DNA from: Verrucomicrobiota bacterium
GTDB taxonomy: Bacteria > Verrucomicrobiota > Verrucomicrobiia > Verrucomicrobiales > Akkermansiaceae
NCBI GenBank assembly: GCA_016871685.1
Contig: VHCM01000006.1
Coordinates: 1-47,156 of the forward strand
Length of the DNA stretch: 47,156 nucleotides
Direction: 5' to 3'
Position 1 is the stretch's first letter. Every line of letters starts with the position of its first letter. Shown in pieces: positions 6,451-29,728 of this stretch. The notes under the pieces were generated by a model that made no database searches, had not been told where the DNA came from, and saw only the letters and a list, made by a program, of their open reading frames with translations. A program made the position numbers and the translations under genes.

Positions 6451-6972
<522 letters not shown>

Positions 6973-7389
6973 TCATCCCTTCGATTTCAGCAGATCGCGG
7001 ATCTCGGCGAGCAGTTTTTCCTGGGCGGTGGGCTCCGGCGAATCGGCGCTGATCGCGGCGAGTTCCTTCGCCTTGTTGATCGCCTTGACGACGAGGAACA
7101 TGACAAAGGCGACGATGACGAAGTTGATCGCGACCGTCACGAAGCTGCCGTAGGCGAAGACCGCCCCCTGCTCGCGCGCCTGATCGAGAGTGGCGGCGGT
7201 GACCCTGGACGAAAGGCCGATGAACTTGTTGCTGAAGTCCATGCCACCGGAGATCTGGCCAACGACTGGCATCACGAGGTCCTCGATGAACGAGCCGGAG
7301 AGCTTGGTGAAGGCCGCGCCCATCACGAAGGCGACGGACATGTCGATGAGGTTGCCTTTGAGGGCGAATTTCTTGAATTCCTTGAACAT
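6973..7389 (-). CDS. mscL: Large-conductance mechanosensitive channel
   Basis: MFKEFKKFALKGNLIDMSVAFVMGAAFTKLSGSFIEDLVMPVVG. Confidence 0.95.
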   Translation of the reverse strand: MFKEFKKFALKGNLIDMSVAFVMGAAFTKLSGSFIEDLVMPVVGQISGGMDFSNKFIGLSSRVTAATLDQAREQGAVFAYGSFVTVAINFVIVAFVMFLVVKAINKAKELAAISADSPEPTAQEKLLAEIRDLLKSKG

Positions 7390-7509
7390 GGGGGTGGATG
7401 GAAGGAATACCCAAGCATCCGACCCGCTCCGCTGCCAAGTGGATTTTCCCGGAGGTCGGCCGCCACTTCCCGCTTGGCAGGGACTCTTCCATCAGGAAAC
7501 CATCAACTC

Positions 7510-8445
7510 ATGGCCATCACCCGCCCGCTCACGCTGCGCCGCCTGCTCGACGAGGTTGGGCCGGTCGATGCGGTGGGCCTCGACGAGCGGGTTGCCAAAT
7601 ACACGACGCGCAGCATCAAGCGCGACTCCAAGGTGCGCGGCCTGCGAATGGCGGTGTCGATGGTGGATCTCACCACGCTCGAAGGCAAGGACACGCCGGG
7701 CAAGGTGGCCTCGCTGTGTCGCAAGGCGTTGAGGCCGCACGATGCAGCGGACACGCCGCAAGTCGCCGCGGTGTGCGTCTATCCGTCGATGGTGCGACAC
7801 GCCGTCGGCCACGTCCGCGGCACGGGCGTGCGTGTGGCTTCGGTGGCCACCGCGTTTCCGTCGGGTCAGACACCGCTCAAGACCCGGCTCGCGGAGGTGA
7901 AACAAGCGGTGACCGACGGGGCGGACGAAATCGACATGGTGATCCGGCGCGGCGCGTTCCTCGCCGGGCGGCTCGACGAGGTGCGGGACGAAATCGCGGC
8001 GGTGGTCGACGCCTGCGGCAACGCCGTGCTCAAGGTGATTCTCGAGACGAGCGAGCTGGAGACGCCCGATCACATTCGCGCGGCGTCGTTTCTCGCGATG
8101 CAGGTGCTGCGCGACGGCGATTTCATCAAGACGTCCACCGGCAAGACCTCGTCCAACGCGACGCTGGCGAACAACCAGGTGATGATCGACGCGATCCGCG
8201 ACCACTACCTCGCCACCGGCACGCGCATCGGCATGAAACCCGCAGGCGGCATCCGCACCGCCAAGCAGGCGCTGCATTACCTTGTCGCGGTCAAGGAGAC
8301 GCTGGGCGACGAATGGCTCCACCCATCGCGCTACCGGTTCGGCGCATCATCACTGCTCAACGACCTGCTTCGCCAGCTCGAAACCCAGCGCGGCGGCGCA
8401 TACCCCGCCCCGTGGTCGTTCTCCGAAGATTCCGGTGGCTATTGA
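7510..8445 (+). CDS. deoC: Deoxyribose-phosphate aldolase
   Basis: MVDLTTLEGKDTPGKV, VCVYPSMV, VASVATAFPSGQTPLKTRLAEVKQAVTDGADEIDMVI, DFIKTSTGKT, GMKPAGGIRT. Start trimmed from the longer ORF to ATG 7510. Confidence 0.95.
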   Translation: MAITRPLTLRRLLDEVGPVDAVGLDERVAKYTTRSIKRDSKVRGLRMAVSMVDLTTLEGKDTPGKVASLCRKALRPHDAADTPQVAAVCVYPSMVRHAVGHVRGTGVRVASVATAFPSGQTPLKTRLAEVKQAVTDGADEIDMVIRRGAFLAGRLDEVRDEIAAVVDACGNAVLKVILETSELETPDHIRAASFLAMQVLRDGDFIKTSTGKTSSNATLANNQVMIDAIRDHYLATGTRIGMKPAGGIRTAKQALHYLVAVKETLGDEWLHPSRYRFGASSLLNDLLRQLETQRGGAYPAPWSFSEDSGGY

Positions 8446-8474
8446 ACCCCGCATTTTCCAAGCCCCCTCCGACC

Positions 8475-9959
8475 ATGCCTGCCAAGTCCAAGCGACCCAC
8501 CGCCCGTGAGCTGCTCTTCGGCGATCTGTGGGAATTCGACCCCGCGCCTGAATCGGCACCGGCCCACATCGAGTCGCGCTACGGTCTGTTCATCGGCGGA
8601 CGCATGGTCGAGCCGAAATCGAAGCGTCACTTCAATTCGATCTCGCCGCGCGACGGCTCGGTGCTCTCGCGGATCGCTCACGCAAATGCGGCCGACGTCG
8701 ACGCCGCCTACCGTGCAGCAGCGGCCGCATTCCGCCCGTGGAGTCGGCTGCCCGGCCACGAGCGCGGCAAATACTTGTTCCGCATCGCACGCCTGCTGCA
8801 AGACCGCGCGCGGGAATTCGCCGTCGCCGAGTCGCTCGACGGCGGCAAGCCGATCCGCGAGTCGCGCGACTTCGACCTGCCGGTGGCCGCCGCGCATTTC
8901 TTCTATCACGCCGGCTGGGCGGACAAGCTCGCCTACGTCGCCCCGGGAAGATCGCTGGCACCGCTGGGCGTGATCGGTCAGGTGATCCCGTGGAATTTCC
9001 CGCTGCTCATGCTCGCGTGGAAGATCGCCCCGGCACTCGCCACCGGCAACACTGTGGTGATCAAACCGGCCGAAACCACCTCGATCACCGCGATGAAGTT
9101 CGCGTCGATCCTGCAGGACGCCGGGCTGCCACCGGGTGTGGTCAACATCGTCACCGGTGCGGGCGACACCGGCGCGGCAGTGGTCAATCACCCGCTCGCG
9201 GCAAAGATCGCGTTTACCGGGTCGACCGAGGTCGGCAAGAGCATCCAACACGCGCTGGCCGGCACCGGCAAGCGGCTCACGCTCGAACTGGGCGGCAAGG
9301 CCGCCAACATCGTGTTCGACGACGCTCCGCCCGACCAGGCGGTCGAGGGCATCATCAACGGCATCTTCTTCAACCAAGGGCATGTCTGCTGCGCCGGATC
9401 GCGCCTGCTGGTGCAGGAAGACATCGCCGATGAGATCGTCGCGCGGCTCAAGCGCCGCATGGCGGTGCTGCGCGTCGGCGATCCGCTCGACAAAAACACC
9501 GACGTCGGCGCGATCAATTCGAAGGAGCAACTCGCGAGGATCCGCTCATTGGTGAAATCCGGCGTCGACGAGGGCGCGGTGATCCACCAGTGCGCGTGCC
9601 GCCTTCCGGCAAAGGGCTATTATTTCCCGCCCACCTTGTTCACCGGCGTGACGCAAAGCCAGCGCATCGCCCGTGAGGAGATCTTCGGTCCGGTGTTGTC
9701 GATCCTGACCTTCCGCACGCCCGACGAGGCGGTGGAGAAAGCGAACAACACCGCCTACGGCCTGAGTGCCGGGGTGTGGACCGACAAGGGGTCGCGCATT
9801 CTGATGATGGCGTCGCGACTCAAGGCCGGCGTGGTCTGGGCCAACACGTACAACAAGTTCGATCCCTCGTCGCCCTTCGGCGGATACAAGGAATCCGGAT
9901 TCGGCCGCGAGGGCGGAAAACACGGACTGCTCGACTACGCGTTGCTGGTGCCGCGGTGA
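8475..9959 (+). CDS. Aldehyde dehydrogenase, catalytically complete; resembles the N-terminal domain of ALDH16-type proteins
   Basis: VIGQVIPWNFPLLMLAWKIAPALATGNTVV, AFTGSTEVGK, ELGGKAANIVFDD, FNQGHVCCAGSR (Cys), FGGYKESGFGREGG. Confidence 0.92.
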   Translation: MPAKSKRPTARELLFGDLWEFDPAPESAPAHIESRYGLFIGGRMVEPKSKRHFNSISPRDGSVLSRIAHANAADVDAAYRAAAAAFRPWSRLPGHERGKYLFRIARLLQDRAREFAVAESLDGGKPIRESRDFDLPVAAAHFFYHAGWADKLAYVAPGRSLAPLGVIGQVIPWNFPLLMLAWKIAPALATGNTVVIKPAETTSITAMKFASILQDAGLPPGVVNIVTGAGDTGAAVVNHPLAAKIAFTGSTEVGKSIQHALAGTGKRLTLELGGKAANIVFDDAPPDQAVEGIINGIFFNQGHVCCAGSRLLVQEDIADEIVARLKRRMAVLRVGDPLDKNTDVGAINSKEQLARIRSLVKSGVDEGAVIHQCACRLPAKGYYFPPTLFTGVTQSQRIAREEIFGPVLSILTFRTPDEAVEKANNTAYGLSAGVWTDKGSRILMMASRLKAGVVWANTYNKFDPSSPFGGYKESGFGREGGKHGLLDYALLVPR

Positions 9960-24613: not shown

Positions 24614-26167
24614 ATGAACACGCTCCGCTCGCTCGATCTCGTGGTGCTCGCCGTGTACTTTCTCGGCGTTGCATGGATCGGCGTCCGCTTTGCCAGGCGT
24701 CAGACATCCACCGAGACGTACTTCGTCGCGGGCCGTTCGATCCCGGCGTGGGCGATGGGCATCTCGACCTTCGCCACGCTCATCAGCAGCATCACCTTCA
24801 TCGCTTACCCGGGGTCGGCCTACGCGGGCAACTGGAGCGAACTCGTTCCCGGCTTCATGGTCGTCGCCGTGCTCGCGGTCGTCGGCGCGGTGATCATCCC
24901 GTTCTTCCGCCAATCGGTGGGCATGAGCGCGTACGAGTATTTCGGCCACCGCTTCGGATACGGCGCACGGGCCTACAGCGCGCTCGCATTCACCGCGGGC
25001 CATTTCTCCAAAATGGGCTTTGTCCTCTACCTGCTCTCGCTCATCGCCCACAGCATGACCGGATGGAACCTCTACACCGTGCTGCTGGTCGTCGGCATCG
25101 TCACGGTCGCCTACACGCTCTTCGGCGGACTCGAGGCGGTGATCTGGACCGACGTCGTCCAGGGAATCGTCATGTGGATCGGCGTGGCGGTGGTGCTCGG
25201 ATTTCTCGTTTACCTGATGCCCGGCGGCATCGGCAAGGGCGTCGAACTCGCGCGGGATCAAGGGAAATTCAGCCTCGGCAATGGCGCGTTCGACCTCGCC
25301 GACCGCACCAGCATCTGGGTGATGAGCCTCTACGGCATGCTGTGGTACCTGCAGAAGTATGCGGCCGACCAGACCATCGTGCAGCGCTATCTGGTCGCGA
25401 AATCCGACCGCGAGGCGATCAAGGGCGTGGCATTCGGCGCGCTGCTGTGCGTGCCGGTTTGGACCCTCTTCATGCTCATCGGCACGCTGCTGTGGAGCTA
25501 CTACCAGCTTTCCGGCGAGGCGCTCCCGGCGGCGCTCACCGACAAGGCGGGCAAGGTGATGGCCGACAAGGTGTTCCCGCATTTCCTGATCACCCACATT
25601 CCGGAGGGAATCGCGGGACTGATCATCGCCGCGGTCTTCGCTGCGGGGATGTCGACCTTGTCGTCCGACCTCAACTGCCTGTCGGCGGTAGGCGTCGAAG
25701 ACTACTACCGCAAACTCCGCCCCGACGCGTCCGACCGCCGTCGCTTGATCGTTGGCAAGATCATCGTCGGCGTCTGCGGTCTGCTCGCCGTTGGCATCGG
25801 CGCGCTGATCGCCTGGAAGAGCGAGCGCGTGCTCACGCTGTACTACGCGGTTTCCTCCATCGTCTCCGGCGGACTCGCCGGCATCTTCCTGCTCGCGTTT
25901 CTGAGCAAACGCGCCAACCGCAACGGCGTCTGGGCGGGCATCATCGTCAACCTGCTGTTCACCGCATGGGCGACCCTCACCAGCGGCAAAAACCGGATGT
26001 TCGATCTCGGCGAGTGGAACTTTCCCTGGGCGGGCGTCATGATCGGCGTCTGCGGCCACGTGATCGTGCTGGTCGTCGGCTGGCTCGCCAGCATCATGAT
26101 GCCTGCCGATGCCCCCGTGCGCGACGAATGGACGCTGCAGGGATGGCTGCGACGTCGAAACCGGTGA
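24614..26167 (+). CDS. Sodium:solute symporter (SSS) family transporter
   Basis: DLVVLAVYFLGVAWIGVRFARRQTSTETYFVAGRSIPAWAMGISTFATLISSITFIAYPGSAY; multi-TM, first gene of the cluster. Confidence 0.9.
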   Translation: MNTLRSLDLVVLAVYFLGVAWIGVRFARRQTSTETYFVAGRSIPAWAMGISTFATLISSITFIAYPGSAYAGNWSELVPGFMVVAVLAVVGAVIIPFFRQSVGMSAYEYFGHRFGYGARAYSALAFTAGHFSKMGFVLYLLSLIAHSMTGWNLYTVLLVVGIVTVAYTLFGGLEAVIWTDVVQGIVMWIGVAVVLGFLVYLMPGGIGKGVELARDQGKFSLGNGAFDLADRTSIWVMSLYGMLWYLQKYAADQTIVQRYLVAKSDREAIKGVAFGALLCVPVWTLFMLIGTLLWSYYQLSGEALPAALTDKAGKVMADKVFPHFLITHIPEGIAGLIIAAVFAAGMSTLSSDLNCLSAVGVEDYYRKLRPDASDRRRLIVGKIIVGVCGLLAVGIGALIAWKSERVLTLYYAVSSIVSGGLAGIFLLAFLSKRANRNGVWAGIIVNLLFTAWATLTSGKNRMFDLGEWNFPWAGVMIGVCGHVIVLVVGWLASIMMPADAPVRDEWTLQGWLRRRNR

Positions 26168-26172
26168 GAATC

Positions 26173-27117
26173 ATGAATGGGACAGGAAAACCATGCCATG
26201 GGGTGATCGTGCCGATGGTGAGCCCGCTCGATGCGCGGTTCGAGGCGGATGCCGCGGCGGTCAGGACGTTGATCAGTTCGTTCGCGCGCTCCGGCGTGCA
26301 TGCCTTCGTGCTCGGCACCACCGGCGAGTGCGCCTCTCTCGACGCCATACAGCGCGCGCGGATCGTCGCTGCGGCGACGGAGGCTTCGTCCGGTCGCTGC
26401 CAGATCCACGCCGGCATCTCGGGCAACGCGCTGAATGACTGCCTCGCCCACGCGCGGCAGTGGCAATCATTGGGGGCTGATTTCGCCGTCGCCCATCTGC
26501 CGTCGTACTACCGGATCGGCGAAGCCGCAATGGAGGAGTGGTTCCTGCGCTTGGCCGACGGGTCACCATTGCCGTTGCTGCTCTACAACATCCCGCAAAC
26601 GACGGGACTGTCGCTTCCAATCGACGCCATCGAGCGGCTCGCGTCGCACCCCAATATCTGCGGCATCAAGGATAGCGAGCGCGATGAATCGCGACTCGAG
26701 CGTCTCATCACCATCGCCCGGTCACACGAGCGGTTTTCCGTCCTGCTCGGATGGGCGGCGCGCTCGGCGGACGCGGTCGCCGCCGGCATCGACGGCATCG
26801 TGCCCAGCAGCGCTAATCTGGTGCCCGCCGCGTACCGCACGCTGTACAATGCTGCAGCGGCGGGCCGCGCGGAGGAAGCGGCCCGATGGCAACAAATCAC
26901 CGACCGGATCACCGACATCTATCAAAAGGACCGGCCGCTCGCCGAGGCGTTCGCATTGCTCAAGGCGATGCTCGCCGGATTCGGTATCTGCGCGCCGCAC
27001 TGCGCGCCGCCGCTCGCCACCGCGGATGACGCGGCGATGCACGAGGTCATGCAGACCATCGAACCCTTCCGCGCCACTGTGATCCAATCACATCCGGAAG
27101 AACTCACCGTCGGCTGA
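26173..27117 (+). CDS. DapA/N-acetylneuraminate lyase family Schiff-base aldolase or dehydratase
   Basis: GTTGECASLD, LLLYNIPQTTGLSLP (Tyr), NICGIKDSERDESRL (Schiff-base Lys). Confidence 0.88.
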   Translation: MNGTGKPCHGVIVPMVSPLDARFEADAAAVRTLISSFARSGVHAFVLGTTGECASLDAIQRARIVAAATEASSGRCQIHAGISGNALNDCLAHARQWQSLGADFAVAHLPSYYRIGEAAMEEWFLRLADGSPLPLLLYNIPQTTGLSLPIDAIERLASHPNICGIKDSERDESRLERLITIARSHERFSVLLGWAARSADAVAAGIDGIVPSSANLVPAAYRTLYNAAAAGRAEEAARWQQITDRITDIYQKDRPLAEAFALLKAMLAGFGICAPHCAPPLATADDAAMHEVMQTIEPFRATVIQSHPEELTVG

Positions 27118-28565
27118 TGCCACGTATTGCCATGCAGGTCAGCAGTCACATTCGCGGTGAGTGGTTGCCGGTGCTCCGCGCCTCGCCATGCTTCAGCCCG
27201 GCCGACCCGTCGATGAAAGTCGCCGACGTCGCCTGGGCCGATGCCGCGCAAGCTACGGCTGCGATGGACGCGGCCGACGCGGCGTTTCCATCTTGGCGTC
27301 GCACCCCTGCGGCGGACCGCCACCAGATCATCTCACGGCTCATCTGCAGCATCGACCAACAATCGAGTCACATCGCCGACATCATTCATCGGGAAAATGG
27401 CAAAACACCCGCCGAAGCGCGCCGCGAGGTCGCATCATCGCTCGGCGAAGCGCACTTTCAGGCGGCTTTCCTCGAACAGGGACTGGTCGAATCCTCGGGC
27501 GACGCCGAACTCCGCCACGAACCGCTCGGCGTGGTGCTGCTCATCACGCCATGGAACTTCCCGCTCACCACCGTGGTGCGCAAGGCGATCCCCGCATTGC
27601 TCTGCGGCAACACCGCCGTGCTCAAGCCTTCGCCCCAGGGAATCGCCACCGCAGCCGCCTTCATGCAACTCGCCCGCGACGCGGGACTGCCCGACGGCGT
27701 GCTCAACCTGGTGCCCGCAAATGCCGGTGACGCGATCGACGCGCTGGTCGACCACCCGACGCTGCGCGCGATCTCATTCACCGGATCGACCGGGGTCGGC
27801 CAGCGCATCGCCGCTCGCCTCGGCAGCCGCGATGTCCGATATCAGGCGGAGATGGGCGGCTGCAATGCGATGGTCGTCTGGCGGGATGCCGATCTCGATG
27901 CCGCCGCCGCGGCAGCCGCGTCGAGCGGATTCGCAGTGTGCGGCCAATGGTGCACCGGATTGAGCCGCCTGTTGGTGCACGAGGAAGTGTATGATGCGTT
28001 TCTTCACAAGCTTCGCGATCGCGTCGCGGCCATCCGTCGCTGTGCCGGGCCTGGTCGTGATCCGGATGATTCCCGCGCCACCATGGGATCGCTGACCACT
28101 CCGCAGCAACTCGATCGCACCCGCGCGATCGTCGCCAATGCGGTCGGCCAAGGTGCCGTGGCGATGGTCGCCGACGATGGGTGGTCTGCATCCACCGGAC
28201 TGCATCATCCGCCGGTGATCCTGCACGAGGTCACTCCACAGATGGACTGCGCTCACGAGGAGTTGTTCGCACCGATCATCGCCGTGATGCGCTGCCGCGA
28301 TGCGGACGAAGCGCTGCGCATCGTCAACGACAGCCGCTACGGGTTGTCATTCTCGATCTACACGCGCGACTCCAGGCTTGCGGAGCGGTTCATGGACGAG
28401 GTGGAGGCGGGCGTCTGCCACATCAACCTCGAGACCTGGCACCGCACACCCGACCTGCCGGTGTGCGGCTGGAAGGACTCCGGCCGCGGCATCCCCGAGT
28501 CCGGCCGCACCATGCGCGATTTCCTCACCCGCCTCAAGGTGGTCTACCGTCGTTCACCGTCATGA
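27117..28565 (+). CDS. NAD(P)-dependent aldehyde dehydrogenase (semialdehyde-dehydrogenase-like)
   Basis: VLLITPWNFPLTTVVRKAIPALLCGNTAVLKPSP, SFTGSTGVGQRIA, AEMGGCNAMVVW, CGQWCTGLSR; start codon overlaps the upstream stop (TGATG). Confidence 0.9.
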   Translation: MPRIAMQVSSHIRGEWLPVLRASPCFSPADPSMKVADVAWADAAQATAAMDAADAAFPSWRRTPAADRHQIISRLICSIDQQSSHIADIIHRENGKTPAEARREVASSLGEAHFQAAFLEQGLVESSGDAELRHEPLGVVLLITPWNFPLTTVVRKAIPALLCGNTAVLKPSPQGIATAAAFMQLARDAGLPDGVLNLVPANAGDAIDALVDHPTLRAISFTGSTGVGQRIAARLGSRDVRYQAEMGGCNAMVVWRDADLDAAAAAAASSGFAVCGQWCTGLSRLLVHEEVYDAFLHKLRDRVAAIRRCAGPGRDPDDSRATMGSLTTPQQLDRTRAIVANAVGQGAVAMVADDGWSASTGLHHPPVILHEVTPQMDCAHEELFAPIIAVMRCRDADEALRIVNDSRYGLSFSIYTRDSRLAERFMDEVEAGVCHINLETWHRTPDLPVCGWKDSGRGIPESGRTMRDFLTRLKVVYRRSPS

Positions 28566-29728
28566 ACATCACCGCCATCCACGAACGCACCCTGCCACTC
28601 GCGTCATCCATGCGCAACGCGGTCATCGACTTTTCCACGATGACCGTGTCAGTGGTCGCAGTTGTCACGGACGTGATCCGCGACGGCAGGCCGGTGACGG
28701 GTTACGGCTTCAATTCCAACGGTCGCTACGCCCAGGGCGGCATCATCCGCGAGCGATTCGCCCCGCGATTGCTCGGCGCGGCACCCGGTGCCCTCGCCGA
28801 TGCGGACGGAGCGAATCTCGATCCGTTCAAATGCCTCGCGGTGATGATGACCAACGAGAAGCCCGGCGGTCACGGCGAGCGCAGCGTCGCGGCCGGCACG
28901 CTCGACATGGCCTTCTGGGACATCGTCGCGAAGATCGAGGACAAGCCGCTATGGCGGTTGCTCGCCGATCGCTACAACGGGGGTGCCGCCGACCCGCTCG
29001 TCAACACCTACGCCGCGGGCGGGTACTATCATCCCGGCAAAGGTTTGGAAGCGCTGCAGGACGAACTCAGGGGCTACCTCGATCTCGGCTTCACCAGTTG
29101 CAAGATCAAGGTGGGGGGCGCGCCGATGGACGAGGATCTGCGGCGCATCGAGGCCGCGATCGACGTGCTCGGCGACGGATCGCGACTCGCCGTGGATGCG
29201 AACGGCGGCTTCGACCTCGCCACCGCCATCAAGTTCCAGCAAGCGATCCAACCCTACGGATTAAAATGGTACGAGGAACCGGTGGAACCACTCGACTTCG
29301 AGGCGCATGCGGAACTCGCGGCGTCGGCCGTCACTCCGCTCGCCACCGGCGAGAATTTGTTTTCCTGCGTCGATACCCGCAACTTCGCCAGACACGCCGG
29401 ATTCGATCCTCAGCGCGATTTTCTTCAGGTCGATCCGGTGTTGTCCTACGGCCTAGCGGAATACCTCGGCATCATCGAGATGCTGCGCGGCTACGGTTGG
29501 TCGACGCGCCGCCTCATCCCTCACGGCGGACACCTCTTCGGCATGCACATCGCCGCGGGCCTCCAACTCTACGGCATGGAGTCTTACCCGCACGTCTTCG
29601 ATCCTTACGGCAAGTACGCGCGCGGCATGACGCTGGGGGACGGTAAAGTCGACCTGCCGTCGCTGCCGGGCATCGGCTACGAAGACGTGCCGGGCGTGGA
29701 TGAGTTGATGCGTGCGTTGGCGGGTTGA
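28562..29728 (+). CDS. Enolase-superfamily acid-sugar dehydratase, D(-)-tartrate dehydratase-like
   Basis: SMRNAVIDFSTMTVSVVAVVTDV..GYGFNSNGRYAQGGIIRERF, TNEKPGGHGERSVAAGTLDMAFWD, CKIKVGG (KxK), AVDANGGFD, WYEEPVEP, ATGENLFS, LIPHGGH; overlaps upstream ALDH (ATGA). Confidence 0.82.
   Translation: MNITAIHERTLPLASSMRNAVIDFSTMTVSVVAVVTDVIRDGRPVTGYGFNSNGRYAQGGIIRERFAPRLLGAAPGALADADGANLDPFKCLAVMMTNEKPGGHGERSVAAGTLDMAFWDIVAKIEDKPLWRLLADRYNGGAADPLVNTYAAGGYYHPGKGLEALQDELRGYLDLGFTSCKIKVGGAPMDEDLRRIEAAIDVLGDGSRLAVDANGGFDLATAIKFQQAIQPYGLKWYEEPVEPLDFEAHAELAASAVTPLATGENLFSCVDTRNFARHAGFDPQRDFLQVDPVLSYGLAEYLGIIEMLRGYGWSTRRLIPHGGHLFGMHIAAGLQLYGMESYPHVFDPYGKYARGMTLGDGKVDLPSLPGIGYEDVPGVDELMRALAG

Follow-up and report, generated by a model that had tools for sequence, protein, structure and literature searches.

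Four adjacent genes of an Akkermansiaceae bacterium (Verrucomicrobiota; positions 24614-29728 of contig VHCM01000006.1, assembly GCA_016871685.1, whose 47,156 nucleotides are called the window here) appear to form an oxidative catabolic operon for the acid sugar 3-deoxy-D-lyxo-2-heptulosarate (Dha) or a very close 2-keto-3-deoxy aldulosarate. We infer both the reactions and the substrate from sequence comparisons and give this reading a probability of roughly 0.57. The genes encode an SSS-family sodium:solute symporter, a DapA-family lyase, an aldehyde dehydrogenase (ALDH) and a TarD-like dehydratase. Dha is a rare acid sugar of plant cell walls and a hallmark of rhamnogalacturonan-II (RG-II) in land plants. 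No published Dha catabolism was found in the open-licence literature searched by name, and as far as these searches show the combination of enzymes and the pathway are apparently undescribed, although all of the enzyme families are known.

Dha is a seven-carbon 2-keto-3-deoxy diacid with D-lyxo configuration at C4-C6 (PMC12168206). When the stereochemistry was worked out, cleavage between C3 and C4 led to pyruvate and D-threuronate (tartrate semialdehyde), in which C5 and C6 are kept; the latter yields D-threonate upon reduction and D-threarate upon oxidation, D-threarate being another name for D-(-)-tartrate (2S,3S), the isomer on which TarD acts. In the proposed pathway, Dha or its close relative would be imported by the SSS carrier, and a Schiff-base retro-aldol reaction of the DapA-family enzyme would release pyruvate and D-threuronate. 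The ALDH would then oxidise D-threuronate to D-tartrate, from which the TarD-like enzyme would form oxaloacetate by dehydration. The net reaction would be Dha + NAD(P)+ -> pyruvate + oxaloacetate + NAD(P)H, with the order of the genes reflecting the order of the steps. If true, D-tartrate dehydratases would also act as one step of a longer pathway, and the presence of the otherwise rare natural D-tartrate inside cells would be explained.

DHDPS/NAL aldolases use a Schiff-base lysine, a tyrosine above this lysine, the Ser/Thr of a GXXG motif and a tyrosine of the partner subunit (PMC9795676), and the full residue set is present in the lyase (PF00701 score 162), with GTTGE at 48, SYY at 111, LYNIP at 137 and GIKDS at 164. 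In 2-keto-3-deoxyarabinonate dehydratases (KdaD) the conserved tyrosine is replaced by a catalytic glutamate (PMC13398020), whereas the window lyase keeps the tyrosine. It stays below the cut-offs of the models for 5-keto-4-deoxyglucarate dehydratase (KdgD; 56.5 bits vs 374 and 74.2 bits vs 278), of DapA proper (4-hydroxy-tetrahydrodipicolinate synthase; TIGR00674, 147 bits vs 206) and of NanA, and its motif YNIPQTTG is devoid of the arginine in the YNVPSRTG motif of DapA. By its catalytic residues the protein is thus predicted to be an aldolase and not a dehydratase.

A survey of 289 verrucomicrobial genomes (288 besides that of the window) led to 11 lyase loci beyond the window's own, ten of which (L026-L035; from the families f5 and f10 and from f56, a distant one) have genes for an Fe-alcohol dehydrogenase (Fe-ADH), a DUF1537 kinase, a PdxA-like dehydrogenase and a BT1020-like protein side by side. 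An SSS carrier is also encoded in most of these ten operons, and a LacI regulator in several. A maximum-likelihood tree unites the window lyase with the ten linked lyases in a single clade (SH-aLRT 99.9 / UFBoot 100), which is separate from YagE, YjhH, NanA, DapA and one unlinked verrucomicrobial lyase and is marked by the private residues S168-E169, R174 and P149. At 1e-30, a tblastn search of plasmids with the lyase was without hits. The BT1020-like proteins align with residues 41-608 of BT1020 from Bacteroides thetaiotaomicron (PDB 5mqr) and contain the BT_1020 N-terminal propeller and sialidase-like domains. We take the N-terminal half of BT1020 to be the founding GH143 hydrolase, which removes Dha from RG-II, an activity reportedly described by Ndeh et al. 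in Nature in 2017. As Dha is reported to be a structural relative of sialic acid (PMC12168206), the sialidase-like fold of this half fits a Dha hydrolase. Ten of 222 sampled genomes encode a strong BT1020-like protein, and the lyase was detected in nine of these ten vs one of the remaining 212 (Fisher p = 3e-14, which is indicative only, since the genomes are not phylogenetically independent and each of the two samples was drawn on its own). Cleavage of Dha or a close relative by the window lyase seems quite probable to us.

The other enzymes of the linked operons point to the same four-carbon product. Their PdxA-like proteins reach 308 and 286 bits with D-threonate-4-phosphate dehydrogenase/PdxA2 vs 200 bits with E. 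coli PdxA, and the best model for their DUF1537 proteins is D-threonate kinase. Indeed, the DUF1537 family includes a D-threonate kinase (PMC10971088), and this activity together with 4-phospho-D-threonate dehydrogenase converts D-threonate to dihydroxyacetone phosphate (DHAP) (PMC10079672). In these other Verrucomicrobiota, D-threuronate would be reduced to D-threonate by the Fe-ADH and then processed to DHAP by the DUF1537 kinase and PdxA2; such a BT1020-linked operon, with its predicted conversion of Dha to DHAP, is apparently undescribed as well. The window operon has a lyase of the same clade and, compared to L033 and L034, a carrier of the same SSS subfamily too, but instead of enzymes that reduce and phosphorylate the four-carbon product it encodes the ALDH and the TarD-like protein, without a hydrolase. 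Similarly, the known D-threonate pathway (DtnK and PdxA2, leading to DHAP) uses the reduced form of the proposed intermediate, whereas its enzymes are absent from the window operon and oxidation to tartrate would take their place. That Verrucomicrobiota harbour an undescribed Dha pathway with two branches, which have the DapA-family aldolase in common and part at D-threuronate, the reductive one leading to DHAP and the oxidative one of the window to oxaloacetate, is a proposal whose chances we judge to be even. Dha is preferred as the substrate mainly because two unrelated enzyme sets in operons sharing the lyase fit the same stereochemistry. The model names the enzymes and predicts two alternative Dha routes, and it illustrates that gene neighbourhoods in relatives, here the linkage to BT1020-like genes, can set right a pathway deduced only from the names of enzyme families. 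A second BT1020-like gene of one genome (G119; L103, 1266-15589) was found with genes for a mandelate racemase-type dehydratase, a 2-hydroxyacid dehydrogenase, a sulfatase-like protein, two DapA-family proteins of other clades and an SDR, possibly a further way of using Dha or a related sugar.

The carrier belongs to the SSS family (TIGR00813, 239.5 bits vs a cut-off of 184) and is 59% identical to the SSS proteins adjoining the BT1020-like gene in L033 and L034, with which it groups at 100/100. Matches at E<=1e-110 were detected in only 3 of 230 other genomes, namely those of L033 and L034 and G119, where the gene is part of a pectate-lyase-like cluster of this BT1020-positive genome, on the contig bearing its operon. 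The SSS protein is predicted to be the Dha importer. The preliminary description had already favoured a longer acid sugar over tartrate as the imported substrate, which is supported and probably correct.

The ALDH (PF00171 score 422) has the catalytic cysteine of GQxC, glutamate of EMGG and asparagine of TPWNF. The highest-scoring NCBIfam models are those of alpha-ketoglutaric and succinic semialdehyde dehydrogenases, yet in each case the score falls far short of the cut-off (317.7 bits vs 770 for the top model, alpha-ketoglutaric semialdehyde dehydrogenase). It is nearest, though distantly, to dehydrogenases of carboxylate-bearing aldehydes, and D-threuronate also bears a carboxylate; the predicted function is that of a D-threuronate (tartrate semialdehyde) dehydrogenase. 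The closest relative of this ALDH in the phylum (about 40%) is encoded in L050 (1935-5133, genome G059) with transaldolase-like, SDR and glycosidase-like genes.

The dehydratase (MR_MLE_C domain, 128 bits) has its best structure matches among tartrate dehydratases, with 509 bits for 4kem and 463 bits for Bll6730 of B. japonicum (2dw7/1tzz), followed by talarate/galactarate dehydratase with 102 bits only. The match to TarD (EC 4.2.1.81; Bll6730, PDB 1tzz/2dw6/2dw7; 4kem) covers the full length, and the protein is 55-61% identical to canonical plasmid TarDs. An L-lyxonate-type dehydratase was rejected, as TarD structures match best and the next-best family scores 360 bits lower. The catalytic set of the mandelate racemase subgroup is complete, with KxK (CKIKVGG), the metal ligands D212, E238 and E264 and the Asp-His dyad D291/H321, and the motifs quoted in the preliminary description are present in the protein. 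The capping motifs FNSNGRY and EKPGGHGERS are identical to those of core TarDs, whereas distant homologues vary at FNSN. The protein branches outside the canonical TarD group, with deep nodes poorly supported. Such a gene set is uncommon: within its family the dehydratase gene was found in the window genome alone (none in the 259 others of 260 genomes) and in its class in 6 of 384 genomes, the other five proteins being 51-60% identical and encoded in different contexts.

Canonical TarD genes differ in their surroundings from the window gene, which sits in a lyase/ALDH operon. Verrucomicrobial TarDs at 58-60% identity adjoin DctA-like carriers or sit near tartrate dehydrogenase, and several plasmid TarDs are found in tartrate contexts with LysR, DctA, tripartite carriers or tartrate dehydrogenase. 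As several plasmid TarD loci are of this tartrate type, the usual TarD setting was rejected as an explanation for the lyase and the ALDH, and a window-type lyase was seen in none of the neighbourhoods of canonical plasmid or verrucomicrobial TarDs examined. A contig scan with the dehydratase led to distant mandelate racemase-type loci only.

Three plasmid loci with related genes are of separate interest. In Variovorax boronicumulans (L037, 3522-10458) a 46%-identical TarD-like protein is encoded with a different DapA-family protein, a class V aminotransferase, the binding protein of a tripartite carrier and a second aminotransferase, perhaps a route from a five-carbon aldarate to pyruvate, glyoxylate and glycine. 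In Cereibacter sphaeroides (L039, 3226-7176) the gene of a 55%-identical TarD-like protein overlaps a class II fumarase gene and adjoins genes for an adenylosuccinate-lyase-family protein and a TAXI-type TRAP carrier. A canonical TarD of Novosphingobium (L040, 3808-17109) is accompanied by hydrolases, an IclR regulator, DapA-family, SDR and SSS proteins, two ALDHs and an aconitase-like protein, a cluster with a possible role in the use of tartrate-phenolic acid esters. This locus was rejected as a second example of the SSS-lyase-ALDH-TarD arrangement, as its lyase is 27% identical and its SSS protein lies on a very long branch.

The preliminary description had assigned all four genes to a single pathway, which is supported, but with dehydration ahead of the lyase step, which is not. 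In that order, an imported aldonate or aldarate would be dehydrated to a 2-keto-3-deoxy acid by the TarD-like enzyme and cleaved by the DapA-family enzyme to pyruvate and an aldehyde (such as glycolaldehyde, glyceraldehyde or glyoxylate), which the ALDH would oxidise. The barrel residues close to the active site in which the dehydratase departs from core TarDs would suit such a route, as would the DapA-family gene beside the Variovorax TarD-like gene and the glycerate kinase genes adjoining some ALDHs at 37-39% identity. However, the Variovorax lyase falls outside the window lyase clade, with an identity of only 26%, the TarD capping residues of the dehydratase are unchanged, and the lyase clade is tied to a BT1020-like hydrolase and D-threonate enzymes, which would supply and use a ready-made 2-keto-3-deoxy acid. 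With the aldolase residues Lys/Tyr/Thr/Tyr, without the KdaD glutamate and in a BT1020-linked clade, the lyase likely acts on a substrate that already is a 2-keto-3-deoxy acid, so that cleavage would come first; D-tartrate would then arise after oxidation, and the dehydratase can be a D-tartrate dehydratase after all. We thus consider the earlier order unlikely. Retaining cleavage first, the last two steps could also be swapped, with the dehydratase converting D-threuronate to oxaloacetate semialdehyde and the ALDH oxidising this to oxaloacetate, for the same substrate and end product. The altered barrel residues would be explained if the distal group were an aldehyde instead of a carboxylate, but the ALDH gene precedes the dehydratase gene, the capping residues are like those of enzymes that metabolise D-tartrate, and we know of no precedent for such a dehydration of D-threuronate, which makes the swap improbable.

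Equally slim are the chances of a Weimberg-type route, in which a sugar acid would be converted to a 2-keto-3-deoxy acid, a DapA-family dehydratase would form alpha-ketoglutarate semialdehyde and the ALDH would produce alpha-ketoglutarate. Glucarate and pentose pathways of this kind (KdgD or KdaD with alpha-ketoglutaric semialdehyde dehydrogenase) also combine a DapA-family enzyme and an ALDH in one operon, and the top NCBIfam model of the window ALDH is that dehydrogenase; yet their DapA-family enzyme is a dehydratase and their product alpha-ketoglutarate, whereas the window lyase has the aldolase tyrosine and, like the ALDH, falls far short of the respective cut-offs. A plain D-tartrate operon, with tartrate imported by the SSS protein, converted to oxaloacetate by TarD and the lyase and ALDH serving another role or being hitch-hikers, would agree with TarD as the closest characterised relative of the dehydratase and with the tartrate-type neighbours of other verrucomicrobial TarDs. 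Against this, all three junctions are tight, two of them overlapping, and the carrier is related to those of BT1020-like operons and not to DctA, and we regard this explanation as hardly probable.

Several observations nevertheless speak against oxidative Dha catabolism. Identity between the window lyase and the other members of its clade reaches only 37-42%, and no curated family accommodates the ALDH. In the dehydratase, barrel positions invariant in core TarDs (216, 290, 292, 325-328, 337, 339 and others) are altered, including R216G, C292P, Q325L and N339M, which could signal another substrate; because of these changes the enzyme is named TarD-like and not TarD. A second operon of the oxidative SSS-lyase-ALDH-TarD type was not found in the genomes and plasmids searched. 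Furthermore, a BT1020-like hydrolase is absent from the window operon and from the genome searched (2.27 Mb), in which no GH28 polygalacturonase was detected either, so that the organism would be forced to scavenge free Dha, unless a gene is missing from the 95.6% complete assembly.

The layout of the operon is as first described: open reading frames and the three junctions read from the sequence (Table 1) confirm four near-gapless genes on the same strand, and each of the claimed junction types (5 nt, TGATG, ATGA) is present. The four family assignments hold as well, being firm at superfamily level by profile scores. From the junction overlaps we infer that the four genes are co-transcribed. 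Consensus scans for promoters and terminators stayed at chance level and revealed no promoter-like site. In a synteny comparison around ppk, the neighbours of this gene vary across eight congeners, so evidence for an insertion of the operon was not obtained. GC content and GC content at third codon positions of the operon show no difference from those of adjacent genes.

Table 1. Positions of the operon genes and their junctions in the window, and of one BT1020-linked operon for comparison.
Feature	Position	Strand	Remarks
SSS-family sodium:solute symporter	24614-26167	+	517 aa; intact open reading frame
DapA-family lyase (DHDPS/NAL, class I aldolase)	26173-27117	+	314 aa; intact open reading frame
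Aldehyde dehydrogenase (ALDH)	27117-28565	+	482 aa; intact open reading frame
TarD-like dehydratase (enolase superfamily, mandelate racemase subgroup)	28562-29728	+	388 aa; intact open reading frame
Gap between SSS stop and lyase start, 5 nt	26168-26172	+	sequence
TGATG stop/start, lyase to ALDH, 1-nt overlap	27115-27119	+	sequence
ATGA start/stop, ALDH to dehydratase, 4-nt overlap	28562-28565	+	sequence
Example of a BT1020-linked operon, LacI-SSS-FeADH-DapA-DUF1537-PdxA-BT1020-like	L027 4563-13797		

Elsewhere in the window (6859-9956), a gene with a DeoC/LacD-family aldolase domain is followed by an ALDH gene, whose product is paralogous to the operon ALDH (34% identity); the two may be a deoxyribose-type or other aldolase/ALDH pair.

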